DNA from: Candidatus Fermentibacterales bacterium
GTDB lineage: Bacteria; Fermentibacterota; Fermentibacteria; Fermentibacterales; JAFGKQ01
Length of the DNA stretch: 7,651 nucleotides
Reading direction: 5' to 3'
Assembly: GCA_016928495.1 (NCBI GenBank)
Contig: JAFGKQ010000037.1
Coordinates: forward strand, 1 to 7,651
Made by a program: the position numbers and the translations under genes. This document shows, one piece after another, positions 1,002 to 7,651 of the stretch. The stretch's first letter is position 1. Every line of letters begins with the position of its first letter. The notes beneath the pieces were generated by a model, which was not told the DNA's origin, ran no database searches, and worked only from the letters and a program-made list of their open reading frames with translations.

Positions 1002-1030
1002 TTGACAAAATGATAGTTTAGTGTTACTAT
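1002..1030 (+). promoter_or_regulatory. Sigma70-type promoter for the DUF4097-DUF2089 genes
   Basis: A perfect -35 box TTGACA (1002-1007) is followed by a 17-bp spacer and a -10 box TACTAT (1025-1030, four of six consensus bases). The region is strikingly AT-rich for this window. Transcription would start near 1037 and leave a leader of about 30 nt before the ATG at 1066. Confidence 0.75.
1013..1030. promoter_or_regulatory. Palindrome inside the promoter, candidate operator
   Basis: ATAGT (1013-1017) and ACTAT (1026-1030) are inverted around 8 nt, and an inner pair TAGT-GTT-ACTA (1019-1029) overlaps the same right arm. The right arm is the -10 box, so a bound protein would block RNA polymerase. 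The DUF2089 HTH protein encoded downstream is one candidate ligand; this is inference from position only. Confidence 0.45.
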
Positions 1031-1065: not shown

Positions 1066-2040
1066 ATGAGCGAGGAACGCAAGCAGATTCTCAGCATGCT
1101 CCAGGAGGGCAAGATCAGCGTCGACGACGCCGAGAGACTGCTCAACGCCCTGGCAGAAGGAGAGAGAAGGAAGCACAAGGGCAGAGCTTCGGCGGGTGCC
1201 GTCAGGAAGAGCCTGGGCTCCTCCCTCGACTCGATCGGCGAGGCCCTGGCGGGGATCGGCCCGCTGATCAGCGAGGCAGTCGGGGAGGCAACGTCCGGCC
1301 TAGGCGAAGACGAGGCGGGTGCCGACGAGGAGGAAGAGGAGGAGGAGCTCGAGCAGGTGGCTCTGGAGGACGGCGGGTTCGACATCCCCGAGGGCCAGAA
1401 GCTCGTCATACGCCAGGCGGGACGACGGGGCCTGCTCGGCGCGGGGAGCGGAGACCTGGAGCTGGAGGGCTGCGAGGGCACGAGGTGCCAGGTGCTGCCC
1501 GAGGACGGCGGGGCCCTGAAGGTGTTCCGTGGACGCGGAAGCTGCTCGATCAGGTGGGCCGGCGGCGATCTCAGAGTGCGTGTCCCCCACAGCGTCTCCA
1601 GCGTCACGGCAAGGACCCTCGGAGGAGACATCAGATCGGAGGGGCTCGGGTGCCAGCTCTTCGTGAAGGCCATGGGGGGAAACCTGGACATCGATACCAG
1701 CGGGCATGAGTTCCAGGCCAAGACCATGGGAGGCAACATCAGGGTGAAGATGCTCAAGGCATCCGGCGGAGAGTCGAGAGCCAAGTCCATGGGTGGCGAT
1801 ATCCGGCTGGAGCTCGAGCTCGACGACCCCCTCGAGCTCCGGGCAAGCACCATGGGCGGTGAGATCAGCGTCGATCCCGAGCTGGGCAGCGTCTCGAGGT
1901 CCGGCTCCTTCGGAAGGCAGAAGGCGACGATCGTGATAGGCGCAGCCAAGGGGGATCCCGGCTCGAGCGTGAATCTGAAGACGACCGGAGGGAACATCGT
2001 CATCGTCCGCCGGGAGGGCGAGGAGGCCGGGGATGACTGA
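1066..2040 (+). CDS. DUF4097 (YvlB-like) beta-repeat protein with SHOCT-like N-terminus
   Basis: The protein has 324 residues and no signal peptide or membrane segment, so it is likely cytoplasmic. Residues 4-29 form the short helical motif found at the start of YvlB-like proteins (ERKQILSMLQEGK...AERLL). A Gly/Ala/Ser-rich, possibly amphipathic stretch (42-78) and an acidic run (81-97, mostly Glu) come next. The rest is the DUF4097 beta-repeat domain, marked by six GG(D/N/E)(I/L) turns: LGGDI 185, MGGNL 203, MGGNI 221, MGGDI 242, MGGEI 263 and TGGNI 307. Spacing is 18-21 residues apart from a longer last interval. Such domains are often linked to envelope-stress loci, but no biochemical role is established here. 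The ATG at 1066 is chosen because GGAGG (1056-1060) lies 5 nt upstream; the frame is open back to 1021, but that would start inside the promoter. It overlaps the DUF2089 gene by 8 nt. Confidence 0.9.
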   Translation: MSEERKQILSMLQEGKISVDDAERLLNALAEGERRKHKGRASAGAVRKSLGSSLDSIGEALAGIGPLISEAVGEATSGLGEDEAGADEEEEEEELEQVALEDGGFDIPEGQKLVIRQAGRRGLLGAGSGDLELEGCEGTRCQVLPEDGGALKVFRGRGSCSIRWAGGDLRVRVPHSVSSVTARTLGGDIRSEGLGCQLFVKAMGGNLDIDTSGHEFQAKTMGGNIRVKMLKASGGESRAKSMGGDIRLELELDDPLELRASTMGGEISVDPELGSVSRSGSFGRQKATIVIGAAKGDPGSSVNLKTTGGNIVIVRREGEEAGDD

Positions 2041-2395
2041 CCGCACCATTCCCCCTGTCTGCCCATCCTGTGGGGGCATCATGCTCGTGGTGAAGCTGGA
2101 GTGCCCCTCTTGCGGAGCGGAGGTTGCCGGAGACTTCGACCTGTGCCCGGTTTGCACTCTTGATCCGAAGACCCGCGAGATCTTCGACCTCTTCCTGGAG
2201 GCAAGGGGCAACGTCAAGCAGGTTCAGAGGAAGCTGGGCGTATCCTACCCCACTGCCAGGAGCAGGATAGAGGAGATGTTCGAGAAGCTGGGACTGGGAG
2301 CCATTCCCAGAGACCCGGGCTCGATCCTGCGGAAGCTCAGGGAAGGCGAGATAGACGTCGGTACCGCCGAGAAGCTGCTGAGGGGAGACAACTGA
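2033..2395 (+). CDS. DUF2089 family zinc-ribbon/HTH protein
   Basis: A 120-residue likely DNA-binding regulator. Three CxxC pairs (C10/C13, C24/C27, C38/C41) make a zinc-ribbon-like N-terminus. Residues about 46-88 read as a helix-turn-helix (EIFDLFLEARGNVKQVQRKL, then SYPTARSRIEEMFEKLG), with the family's pattern of a conserved GN..QVQ..LG..Y.T.R. Residues 97-117 (SILRKLREGEIDV...AEKLL) repeat the helical motif that starts the DUF4097 protein upstream. The start overlaps that gene's end in ATGACTGA, so the two are translationally coupled and probably co-regulated. Domain content matches DUF2089. The regulated targets are not visible; autoregulation through the palindrome at 1013-1030 is a guess. 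Confidence 0.9.
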   Translation: MTDRTIPPVCPSCGGIMLVVKLECPSCGAEVAGDFDLCPVCTLDPKTREIFDLFLEARGNVKQVQRKLGVSYPTARSRIEEMFEKLGLGAIPRDPGSILRKLREGEIDVGTAEKLLRGDN

Positions 2396-2866: not shown

Positions 2867-4189
2867 CTAGTCCTCCCTGCCGTACCTCTGAAGCAGCATG
2901 TACATCGCCTCGACCCCGAAAGCCAGCGCTTCCAGAGATATCCTCTCGTCGGCGGCGTGAGCCAGACCGAGCAGGTCCTGGCCCTCCGGGAGGATCATCG
3001 GGGTGAAGCCGTAGGTCTGGATGCCGAGCCGGGAGAAATGGCGGGCGTCCGTGCCCCCGGGCACCAGGAAGGGCAGAGCGGCCGATGCCCGGCTGTCCAG
3101 ATCCTTGAGGATGCCCTCGAGAAGCCCGAACATGCCCATGTCCTGCCTGGCAGGAACGGGGTCGAACCTCGTGACCTCGAACTCGACATGCTCCCCCACG
3201 ACCTCCCGTATCTCACCGATCGCGTCTTGCGGACTGAACCCAGGAAGCAGCCGGCAATCCATGCAGATCTCGATCTGGCTCGGGATGACGTTGATCTTGG
3301 TGCCGCCCTTCACCATCGTGGCGTTCACCGTGTTGTGGAGCAGGGGGTGGAACCCCTTGCCGGCATCTCCGAGCTCCAGCAGGACCTGATCCGTTCTGGA
3401 GGGGTCCAGCAGGGATGCGTAGGTCGAGGCGGAGGGCTCCGGCAGATTGGCGGCGAGTCTTTCCACCATCTGCCTGGTGGCGTCCGTGATGTGAACCGGG
3501 AAGGCGTGGCCGTTCAGGCGTGTCAGCAGGCGGCCGAGCTGTGCCATGGTCCCGTCGCGCATGGGCATGGACCCATGTCCTCCCGGTCCCTCGAGGACGG
3601 TCCGGAGCCAGCAGACCTGCTTCTCGGTGACCTGTACGGGATAGAACCTCCTGCCCTCCACCGTCGTGGAGTAGCCCCCGACCTCGCCCACGGCGTAGCG
3701 CACGTTCTCGAACTCGCCCGGGTGGCTGTCGGCCAGGAACCTGGCCCCGTCGTCGCCCCCCGCCTCCTCGTCGGACAGGACCGCCAGGATGATGTCGCCC
3801 GCCGGCACGAAGCCCTCGGCCCTCGCCTTGAGGAGAGCGGTGATCATCATCGTCAGCCCGCCCTTCATATCGAGGGTCCCCCTGCCCCAGATGCAACCAT
3901 CCTCGATCACTGCCTCGAATGGAGGATGGGTCCAGTTCTGGCCTTCGACGGGGACGACATCGGCGTGACCCTGAAGCAGGAGGGGCGGCGCCGACCCCTG
4001 ACCGGGAAGCCTCGCTATCAGATTGGGCCTGGAAGGGTTGCGAGCGACGGTATGCCAGGGTATTCCCGCCTCCTCCAGAATCCTCCCGATGTAGCCGATG
4101 CACTCGGCCTCGTTGCCGGGGGGGTTGATGGTAGCGAACCGCACAAGGTCGCGAAGCAACTCCGCGGGGCGTTCATGGAGTCCTGACAA
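2867..4189 (-). CDS. M20 family metallopeptidase / amidohydrolase
   Basis: A 440-residue zinc hydrolase of the M20 (ArgE/DapE/carboxypeptidase S) family. Such enzymes cleave C-terminal residues from small peptides or acyl groups from N-acyl amino acids. Expected motifs are present in order: GHADVVP with metal ligand H75 and D77; WGRGTLDMKGG with bridging D107; SDEEAGG with general base E141 and ligand E142; E169 in GEVGG; the lid-domain GGHGS with H205; PGGTDARH (377-384); and the last ligand H411 in LAHAADERI. The WTHPPF...GRG.LDMKG region is most like carboxypeptidase S/PM20D1-type members, but the substrate cannot be told. No signal peptide is seen, so it is probably cytoplasmic. The start is TTG at 4187-4189 because no ATG or GTG fits and a GGGAGGGAG stretch (4198-4206) lies 8-11 nt upstream. 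It follows the lipoprotein gene by 31 nt and probably shares its transcript. Confidence 0.93.
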   Translation of the reverse strand: MSGLHERPAELLRDLVRFATINPPGNEAECIGYIGRILEEAGIPWHTVARNPSRPNLIARLPGQGSAPPLLLQGHADVVPVEGQNWTHPPFEAVIEDGCIWGRGTLDMKGGLTMMITALLKARAEGFVPAGDIILAVLSDEEAGGDDGARFLADSHPGEFENVRYAVGEVGGYSTTVEGRRFYPVQVTEKQVCWLRTVLEGPGGHGSMPMRDGTMAQLGRLLTRLNGHAFPVHITDATRQMVERLAANLPEPSASTYASLLDPSRTDQVLLELGDAGKGFHPLLHNTVNATMVKGGTKINVIPSQIEICMDCRLLPGFSPQDAIGEIREVVGEHVEFEVTRFDPVPARQDMGMFGLLEGILKDLDSRASAALPFLVPGGTDARHFSRLGIQTYGFTPMILPEGQDLLGLAHAADERISLEALAFGVEAMYMLLQRYGRED

Positions 4190-5351: not shown

Positions 5352-6887
5352 CTAGAGCCTGAACTCGATTCCCTGCGCGAGCGGCAGCTCGTGGCTCCAG
5401 TTGATCGTGTTGGTCTGCCTCCTCATGTAGGCCTTCCAGGCCTCGGAGCCGGCCTCCCTGCCTCCGCCGGTCTCCTTCTCGCCGCCGAAGCACCCGCCTA
5501 TCTCGGCCCCGGACGTCCCGATGTTGACGTTCGCGATCCCGCAGTCGGAGCCTGAATGCGACAGGAAGCGCTCGGCCTCCCCGAGGTCCGTGGTGAAGAC
5601 AGCGCTCGAGAGGCCCTGAGGCACCTCGTTGTGGATGGCAATCGCCTCGTCGAGATCCCCGTAGGCGAGGACGTAGAGAATCGGGGCGAACGTCTCGTTG
5701 TGCACGATCCCGGTCTGAGAGGGCATGCGCACTATGGCGGGCTCGACGAAGCGCTCACCCTTGTCCGGAAGCCGCTTTCCACCGAAGACCAGCTCGCCTC
5801 CCTGGGCCTTTGCCGCTTCCAGGGCTTTCATCATCTCTTCAACGGCTTCGGTGCTCACCAGGGGCCCCATCAGGGTCCCGTCCTCCATCGGGTCACCGAT
5901 TCGCACCTGCCCGTAGGCTGACACCAGAGTGCGGACGAGGTCATCCACCACGCTCCTGTGGGCTATGATGCGGCGCGTGGATGTGCAGCGCTGTCCTGCG
6001 GTCCCGACCGCCCCGAAGAGGATCGCCCTGACGGCCATGTCCATGTCCGCGTTGGGGGTCACGATTATTGCGTTGTTCCCCCCGAGCTCGAGGATCGTCC
6101 TTCCGAATCGCCTGGCCACGGTCTCGGATACCATGCGCCCCACTCCGGTGGAACCGGTGAAGGAGACCAGTGGAATGCGCCGGTCCTCCAGCATCCTCTG
6201 TCCCACGGTCCTTCCCGAGCCGATGGCAAGGCAGAAGAGACCTTCCCGGCCGTAATCTCCCATGACGCTGTTGCAGATGTTCTGCACGGCTATCGCCGTC
6301 AGCGGCGTGGTCGAGGAGGGCTTCCAGATCACGGGGTCCCCGCACACCGATGCTATCGCGGCGTTCCAGGACCAGACTGCGACGGGGAAGTTGAAGGCGG
6401 AGATGACGCCGACGATCCCCAGTGGGTGCCACTGCTCGTACATCCTGTGGCTGGGCCTCTCGGAGTGCATCGTCGAGCCGTAGAGCTGCCTGGACAGCCC
6501 GGTGGCGAAGTCGCAGATGTCGATCATCTCCTGCACCTCGCCCAGGCCCTCCTGGCGGATCTTGCCCATCTCCAGAGTGACGAGCTCCCCGAGCGGCTCC
6601 TTGAGCTCCCGGAGCGCGTTGCCCAGGTCGCGGACCAGCTCACCCCTCTTTGGAGCGGGGACCATCCTCCATTCGAGGAACGCCCGGTGCGCGCGCTCGA
6701 CTATCCTGTCCCATGTCCCGGGGCCGGCCTGGACGTAGGACCCCAGCTCCTCCCCGGTGGCCGGGTTGATCGAAGGGATCGCTTCCTGCTCCTCTTCCTC
6801 GATCCAGCCGCCCGGGCCCCAGCAAGCCCCGGGGCTTACCTTCCTGACTCCCAGCTTCTCCAGTACAGCCGCAGCCTTCTCCGACAT
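5352..6887 (-). CDS. Alpha-aminoadipic semialdehyde (P6C) dehydrogenase, ALDH7A1-type
   Basis: A 511-residue NAD-dependent aldehyde dehydrogenase of the ALDH7 (antiquitin) group, close to full length. It oxidises alpha-aminoadipic semialdehyde, in equilibrium with piperideine-6-carboxylate, to alpha-aminoadipate in lysine breakdown. Visible landmarks are FNFP with oxyanion N166, WKPS with cofactor-binding K189, FTGST (243-247), LELGG with general base E267, AGQRC with nucleophile C301, and ETF with E398. Group-specific features are strong: PAPKRGELVR, SLEMGK-like LEMGK, GEVQE.IDICD and TSGAEIGG.FGGEK.TGGGRE. E120 and R300 match the residues that hold the aminoadipate end of the substrate in human ALDH7A1. 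Bacterial counterparts are called amaB or pcd. ATG at 6885-6887 has GGAGG (6893-6897) 5 nt upstream; an open extension to 7001 overlaps the upstream gene and lacks family similarity. It starts 35 nt after the P5C dehydrogenase stop, so one operon is likely. Confidence 0.94.
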   Translation of the reverse strand: MSEKAAAVLEKLGVRKVSPGACWGPGGWIEEEEQEAIPSINPATGEELGSYVQAGPGTWDRIVERAHRAFLEWRMVPAPKRGELVRDLGNALRELKEPLGELVTLEMGKIRQEGLGEVQEMIDICDFATGLSRQLYGSTMHSERPSHRMYEQWHPLGIVGVISAFNFPVAVWSWNAAIASVCGDPVIWKPSSTTPLTAIAVQNICNSVMGDYGREGLFCLAIGSGRTVGQRMLEDRRIPLVSFTGSTGVGRMVSETVARRFGRTILELGGNNAIIVTPNADMDMAVRAILFGAVGTAGQRCTSTRRIIAHRSVVDDLVRTLVSAYGQVRIGDPMEDGTLMGPLVSTEAVEEMMKALEAAKAQGGELVFGGKRLPDKGERFVEPAIVRMPSQTGIVHNETFAPILYVLAYGDLDEAIAIHNEVPQGLSSAVFTTDLGEAERFLSHSGSDCGIANVNIGTSGAEIGGCFGGEKETGGGREAGSEAWKAYMRRQTNTINWSHELPLAQGIEFRL

Positions 6888-6922
6888 GCGGGCCTCCAAT
6901 CCAGTCTCTGGCCTGACGCCCC

Positions 6923-7651
6923 TCAGTCCCCGCTCATGTAGGGATACCGGTAGTCGGTCGGCGGGGCGAAGGTCTCCTTGGTCGTTCGCGTGCTGACCCA
7001 CCTGAGCAGGTTCAGGTAGGATCCGGCCTTGTCGTTGGTCCCGGAGCCGCGGCTCCCGCCGAAAGGCTGCTGGCCGACGACCGCTCCGGTCGGCTTGTCG
7101 TTTATGTAGAAGTTGCCCGCCGAGTGCCGGAGTGCGGTGTGGGCCTTCATGATCGCGTACCTGTCACGGGCGAAGATGCTGCCTGTGAGCGCGTACATGG
7201 ACGTCTGGTCGCATGTCCTCAGCGTCTCCTCGTACTGCGAGTCGGGGTAGACGAAGACGGTCAGCACGGGGCCGAATATCTCCTCCTCCATCAGCCTGAA
7301 GTGCGGATCAGTGGTCTGCACCACCGTCGGCCTGATGAAGTAGCCCTTGCTGTCGTCGTACTCGCCTCCGGCCAGTATCTCGGCATCGCCCGAGCTCTTC
7401 GCGTAGTCTATGAAGGAGGTGATCGTGTCGAAGGCGGCCTTGTCGATCACGGCCCCCATGAAGACCGAGAAGTCCTCCACGCTGCCCATCTTGATGCTGG
7501 AAACCTGGTCGACGAGCATCTCCCTCACCTGCGGCCACAGGCTCTCCGGCAGGTAGGCTCTCGAGGCGGCGGAGCACTTCTGTCCCTGATACTCGAAGGC
7601 TCCCCTCACCAGGGCGGTTGCGACGGCTTCAGGATCGGCCGAGCCGTGGAC
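6923..7651 (-). CDS. L-glutamate gamma-semialdehyde (P5C) dehydrogenase, ALDH4A1-type, partial
   Basis: The C-terminal 242 residues of an NAD-dependent dehydrogenase that oxidises glutamate gamma-semialdehyde (from P5C) to glutamate, the last step of proline and ornithine/arginine breakdown. The frame is open to the right edge, beginning VHGSADPEAV, so the N-terminal Rossmann part, probably some 300 residues, lies outside. The nucleophile is C26 of the fragment in FEYQGQKCSA. Other ALDH4A1 marks are GYFIRPTVV, EEEIFGPVL, GNFYINDKPTGA.VGQQPFGGSRGSGTNDKAG and LRWVS...KETF. These long matches favour the stand-alone ALDH4A1/RocA type over a PutA fusion, although the N-terminus is not seen. The only start-like codon near the edge (GTG at 7607-7609) is internal, just before the catalytic loop. 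It is cotranscribed with the ALDH7-type gene downstream. Symbols pruA or rocA are used for such genes, but none is assigned here. Confidence 0.93.
   Translation of the reverse strand, partial: VHGSADPEAVATALVRGAFEYQGQKCSAASRAYLPESLWPQVREMLVDQVSSIKMGSVEDFSVFMGAVIDKAAFDTITSFIDYAKSSGDAEILAGGEYDDSKGYFIRPTVVQTTDPHFRLMEEEIFGPVLTVFVYPDSQYEETLRTCDQTSMYALTGSIFARDRYAIMKAHTALRHSAGNFYINDKPTGAVVGQQPFGGSRGSGTNDKAGSYLNLLRWVSTRTTKETFAPPTDYRYPYMSGD

Follow-up and report, generated by a model that had tools for sequence, protein, structure and literature searches.

We read the overlapping gene pair in the window, the whole analysed stretch of 7,651 nucleotides, as a cytoplasmic module for envelope stress, of the Toastrack/DUF2089 kind, that regulates itself and whose two proteins would be coupled through a small helical hairpin that both carry, and we give this explanation as a whole a probability of about 50%. 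The domain family and the pairing of the genes are already known; what is new is a conserved DNA site in the promoter of the operon, a predicted operator which, as far as our literature search shows, is undescribed. The window makes up an entire contig (G000:C121) of a draft genome (2.3 Mb, 81% complete) and contains the following features of the pair:

1002..1016, + strand: predicted DUF2089 operator TTGACAAAATGATAG, pseudo-palindromic, with the -35 hexamer TTGACA as its left half (matrix scan)
1025..1030, + strand: predicted -10 hexamer TACTAT, 17 nt after the -35 hexamer (promoter scan, 10/12 matches, TG before the -10)
1066..2040, + strand: gene A, ATG at 1066, SHOCT-like plus Toastrack (DUF4097) protein of 324 aa (PF22746, PF13349, AlphaFold2, Foldseek)
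1072..1164, + strand: predicted N-terminal SHOCT-like helical hairpin, A residues 3-33 (PF22746, AlphaFold2 helices)
1087-1143, + strand: motif of A, residues 8-26, within the N-terminal hairpin
1687..1890, + strand: Toastrack beta domain, Pfam-matched part, A residues 208-275 (PF13349)
2033..2395, + strand: gene B, DUF2089 regulator of 120 aa (PF22747 and PF09862)
2060..2155, + strand: zinc ribbon, B residues 10-41 (PF22747 39.0 bits, alignment A2)
2159..2296, + strand: helix-turn-helix (HTH), B residues 43-88 (PF09862 62.5 bits, alignment A2)
2324..2380, + strand: predicted C-terminal SHOCT-like hairpin, B residues 98-116 (BLASTP to A, profiles, invariant residues, model)

Genes A and B are adjacent in one operon on the same strand, and the start of gene B shares 8 nt with the end of gene A (ATGACTGA), which bears out the gene overlap claimed in the original prediction. 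Protein A is predicted to consist of a SHOCT-like hairpin, a helical linker and a Toastrack beta domain. PF13349 (Toastrack DUF4097) matches it with 31.1 bits at a cut-off of 22.9, the AlphaFold2 model (mean pLDDT 87) is all-beta in the Toastrack part, and Foldseek returned 4qrk as the best PDB match of this model (E 2.8e-8); a PDB sequence search with A gave no match. Protein B belongs to the DUF2089 family, with PF22747 and PF09862 both above their cut-offs, and its predicted architecture is that of a zinc ribbon followed by a sigma4/LuxR-like HTH and by a SHOCT-like hairpin (AlphaFold2 model with a mean pLDDT of 86). Residues C10, C13, C24, C27 and C41 of the zinc ribbon are invariant in 76 relatives, and the HTH contains a near-invariant LGVSYPTAR (both alignment A2). 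This HTH resembles the -35-binding sigma region 4 (3hug) as well as LuxR-type HTHs, with no match at E <= 0.001, and the PDB sequence search with B yielded weak HTH or zinc matches only. Downstream of gene B lies a short, secreted-looking open reading frame (2482-2829, + strand), which is without a Pfam match and was not seen after DUF2089 in the relatives.

As judged by sequence comparison, the hairpins of A and B are homologous. The two copies of the motif, ILSMLQEGKISVDDAERLL in A (residues 8-26) and ILRKLREGEIDVGTAEKLL in B (residues 98-116), are identical at 11 of 19 positions and positive at 14 of 19 in BLASTP (E = 0.005, single comparison); the best ungapped 19-mer score between the proteins is 48, as against 25.4 +- 4.1 and a maximum of 47 in 1000 shuffled pairs; and when the profiles of 79 DUF2089 tails and 74 partner hairpins were compared, the probability was 96.7% (E = 4e-10). 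Because of this identity, the score above the shuffles and the profile alignment, chance is excluded. The original prediction thus rightly placed the motif in both proteins, while its end points, residues 27 and 117, lie one residue too far, since the pattern is 19 residues long. Its view of the motif as an unrecognised pairing element has to be abandoned: the shared stretch matches the predicted small helical domain already catalogued as PF22746 ("SHOCT-like_DUF2089-C"), and the association has been in print since 2024 (PMC11237479). PF22746 scores 41.9 bits in A, above the cut-off of 27. The tail of B reaches 14.8 bits and stays below that cut-off, so that its assignment to the SHOCT-like class is based on the profile comparison and on matching relatives (PF22746 hits at E <= 0.01 in 22 of 76 relatives of B) and not on its own Pfam score. 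Two tail residues, G105 and A112, show the same degree of invariance as the zinc cysteines (76 sequences, wider scan). AlphaFold2 predicts two short helices with a turn at the motif in both proteins (A, H3-13 and H19-41, pLDDT 93-98; B, H95-103 and H109-116, pLDDT about 77-91). Weak matches to the antitoxin VbhA (PF18495) were noted for a few tails and one partner hairpin (E 0.0015-0.006, alignments A2 and A3).

Ravi et al. 2024 (PMC11237479) described DUF2089 proteins as a zinc ribbon and an HTH with a C-terminal SHOCT-like domain, Toastrack proteins with an N-terminal SHOCT-like domain, and operons common to both, for which they proposed a role in passing membrane signals on to transcription. 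The window pair has the same domain make-up and the same shared operon as the four-gene Toastrack-DUF2089 contexts of that study. A link to LiaI-LiaF-TM, B-box or PspC, as in the published operons, was not found in the window, where none of the eight proteins scanned matched these domains; this is no bar to membership, because the same authors speak of variants. Neither "operator" nor "palindrome" appears in their text, which names no DUF2089 site; the present analysis adds the predicted operator, the counts of linkage and, for Fermentibacterota, the distinction of two operon types. Toastrack proteins also take part in envelope stress in the lia operon of Bacillota, where the C-terminal domain of LiaX is responsible for its inhibitory action (PMC11601895). 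The NCBIfam model of LiaX (NF038025) aligns through its C-terminal part with residues 197-313 of A, at 21.8 bits and so far below the cut-off of 350. In contrast to the lia operon, the window lacks genes for LiaF, LiaS and LiaR, and the regulator is a DUF2089 protein instead of a two-component response regulator. The SHOCT domain proper, for which a role in oligomerisation or binding has been proposed (PMC3581485), is likewise very short, helical and located at protein termini, whereas PF22746 is a separate Pfam model.

The two genes are tightly paired. Among 42 Fermentibacterota genomes, DUF2089 is present in all and PF22746 in 41. A same-strand DUF2089 gene lies within 1.2 kb of 74 of the 77 strong SHOCT-like places in this phylum, and conversely 74 of its 79 DUF2089 places have a same-strand SHOCT-like neighbour within that distance; unpaired places are near contig ends, with the exception of one weak PF22746 match (G026:C1:523535). 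Each of the 79 DUF2089 proteins has the hairpin tail at its end. Two types of operon occur in Fermentibacterota. In type I (n = 33, including the window), a SHOCT-Toastrack gene precedes DUF2089, while in type II (n = 41) DUF2089 comes first and a short SHOCT-like protein is encoded about 0.5 kb downstream. The genome of the window has a second DUF2089 operon, which is of type II (G000:C5, L005 240-1335) and encodes DUF2089, a hydrophobic protein of 102 aa and a SHOCT-like protein of 136 aa (925-1332), in this order; a further site-like sequence, CTTAACATATTGGTAA, is found there at C5:123-138. In seven loci (L046, L056, L058, L061, L070, L079, L082) a third gene starts no more than about 15 nt from the stop codon of DUF2089 and encodes a lipoprotein-like protein. 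This protein matches DUF4097 in several of the loci, and such operons may therefore encode one cytoplasmic and one exported Toastrack protein. The Toastrack gene of Ca. Sabulitectum silens (L140) is in four reading-frame pieces, which reflects either assembly errors or a pseudogene.

A conserved neighbourhood, on which the original prediction depended, was also found in several other phyla, the pair being present in Actinomycetota, Chloroflexota, Dormibacterota, a class containing Clostridium, and others. Outside Fermentibacterota, nearly all DUF2089 loci have an upstream open reading frame, in most cases with an N-terminal hairpin, and 49 of 58 upstream partner proteins match PF22746. In the class of a Clostridium MAG (79 genomes), 19 genomes carry both a separate PF22746 gene and DUF2089, 5 and 2 carry only one of them and 53 carry neither (Fisher p = 9e-12, relatedness not removed), and DUF2089 is next to 19 of the 23 SHOCT-like places. 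Five genomes of this class have a tailed DUF2089 and no separate SHOCT-like gene above the PF22746 cut-off. Their proteins (L221, L223, L224, L225, L229) bear the divergent tail LAxxDxLDxxTAKxLI, without a SHOCT-like gene nearby; the idea that they are tail-less was ruled out, as PF22746 finds the divergent tail in all five (27-32 bits). Fusions of DUF2089 with a SHOCT-like partner, for which the original prediction had proposed a survey, were not seen among the loci examined in a non-exhaustive search.

Over the -35 hexamer and the spacer of Toastrack-DUF2089 operons, a pseudo-palindrome TTGaCA-N3-TGgnAA is conserved. Searched de novo, 43 upstream regions from outside Fermentibacterota gave the motif CTTGACAttTTGgnAA with a log-likelihood ratio of 274, as compared with 68-80 in five shuffles. 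Its dyad symmetry is significant (p = 0.0055, column permutation), and the site mostly lies 57-64 nt before the hairpin codons. A scoring matrix trained solely on non-Fermentibacterota operons was applied unchanged to Fermentibacterota. In the window, its best match, CTTGACAAAATGATAG (1001-1016, 16.3 bits), takes first place among the 15,272 positions of the two strands, and in 26 of the 33 type I loci the operon promoter is the top match of the whole locus. Type II operons score lower, with the operon promoter ranked first in 16 of 40, and in these as well as in Clostridial operons the site is weaker and AT-rich. Perfect or near-perfect palindromes are found in L128 (TTGCCATAATGGCAA) and L182 (TTGCCAATTTGGCAA); in the window, the palindrome is weak. 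Covariation between the left and right halves is nearly absent and confined to one position (p = 0.02, uncorrected). Counting a degenerate site pattern in six genomes revealed no consistent excess over the reversed-pattern control, and genome-wide counts were rejected as a predictor of the regulon. In operons L148-L197, most of which come from Actinomycetota or Chloroflexota, the start codon follows the predicted -35 at a distance of about 35 nt, and these operons may therefore be transcribed as leaderless mRNA.

We propose that a dimer of B would bind the pseudo-palindrome via its near-invariant HTH and would repress or tune its own operon, since the site lies across the -35 hexamer and the spacer. 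That B regulates its operon at this site is probable, and action as a repressor is the more likely form. The hairpins would serve as small docking or oligomerisation elements, and the Toastrack protein, kept close to the membrane or attached to a membrane partner, could capture or release B through them, such that the state of the membrane would set the output of the operon. This second half of the mechanism is weaker than the first. Control of an HTH regulator by a Toastrack protein is plausible, and an action of A on B by way of the hairpins would be the simplest link between the two conserved facts; we are less sure of it and put it forward as a tentative step, somewhat short of an even chance.

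Motif-mediated binding between A and B, as envisaged in the original prediction, gained no support from covariation measured against its control, from similarity within operons or from the tailed DUF2089 proteins that have no partner gene. Mutual information between tail and hairpin is high overall and equal to that of the control, the DUF2089 body against the hairpin, and is therefore best read as shared ancestry. Hairpins from the same operon are no more alike than those from different operons (17 vs 14 genomes), which makes pair-specific similarity uninformative as evidence for contact. At motif position 7, Fermentibacterota have E/D in the tail of B and K/T in the hairpin of A. Outside this phylum opposite charges are not kept (8 E/E pairs), and the charge swap was rejected as proof of contact, being a trend of Fermentibacterota only (charge-product test, p = 0.56).

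Each hairpin might instead dimerise or oligomerise its own protein, yielding a DUF2089 dimer on the palindrome and a Toastrack oligomer at the membrane, in which case the homology would reflect domain recruitment and A and B would not touch. The lack of specific covariation and the five Clostridium-class genomes fit this alternative, the pseudo-palindromic site suggests a dimer, and SHOCT domains are often found in oligomeric proteins (PMC3581485). However, gene adjacency across several phyla and in two gene orders suggests a functional coupling that exceeds chance recruitment, and we regard homotypic use as a serious alternative that is less likely than not. Much the same standing is given to docking of both hairpins to a common third partner, either the inner face of the membrane or one membrane protein. 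Ravi et al. proposed membrane docking for SHOCT-like domains (PMC11237479), in type II operons a gene for a small hydrophobic protein sits between those for DUF2089 and the SHOCT-like protein, and the lipoprotein-like gene after DUF2089 in several Fermentibacterota, some copies of which match DUF4097, points in the same direction. Beside the window pair, however, there is no such gene for a membrane protein, its neighbour being the short secreted-looking reading frame without a Pfam match. Neither of these two alternatives is exclusive. The last alternative, a strong sigma-70 promoter that is no operator, would explain the consensus -35 in the left half and the -10 hexamer 17 nt downstream and is nevertheless improbable, since the conserved right half in the spacer is much weaker at the 215 other TTGACA sites of the same loci (p = 2e-19, relatedness not removed) and since the TTGCCA-N3-TGGCAA sites of L128, L149 and L182 are better palindromes and worse -35 elements.

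DUF2089 proteins are found across many phyla, and our literature search turned up no DNA target for them. With a specific operator predicted and a fixed partner gene at hand, the family becomes accessible to simple binding and reporter experiments and could reveal the route by which cytoplasmic Toastrack proteins act on transcription. Whether DUF2089 proteins in general are autoregulators at a widely conserved operator, TTGnCA-N3-TGnnAA, over their own -35 and are switched by Toastrack proteins in hairpin-to-hairpin binding is doubtful; if true, this would be a widespread signalling system that uses neither a histidine kinase nor a ligand domain. The remainder of the window encodes an M20 peptidase (2867-4189, - strand) and two aldehyde dehydrogenases (5352-7609, - strand), one an L-piperidine-6-carboxylate dehydrogenase above the cut-off and the other the C-terminal part of a 1-pyrroline-5-carboxylate dehydrogenase that is cut by the contig end.
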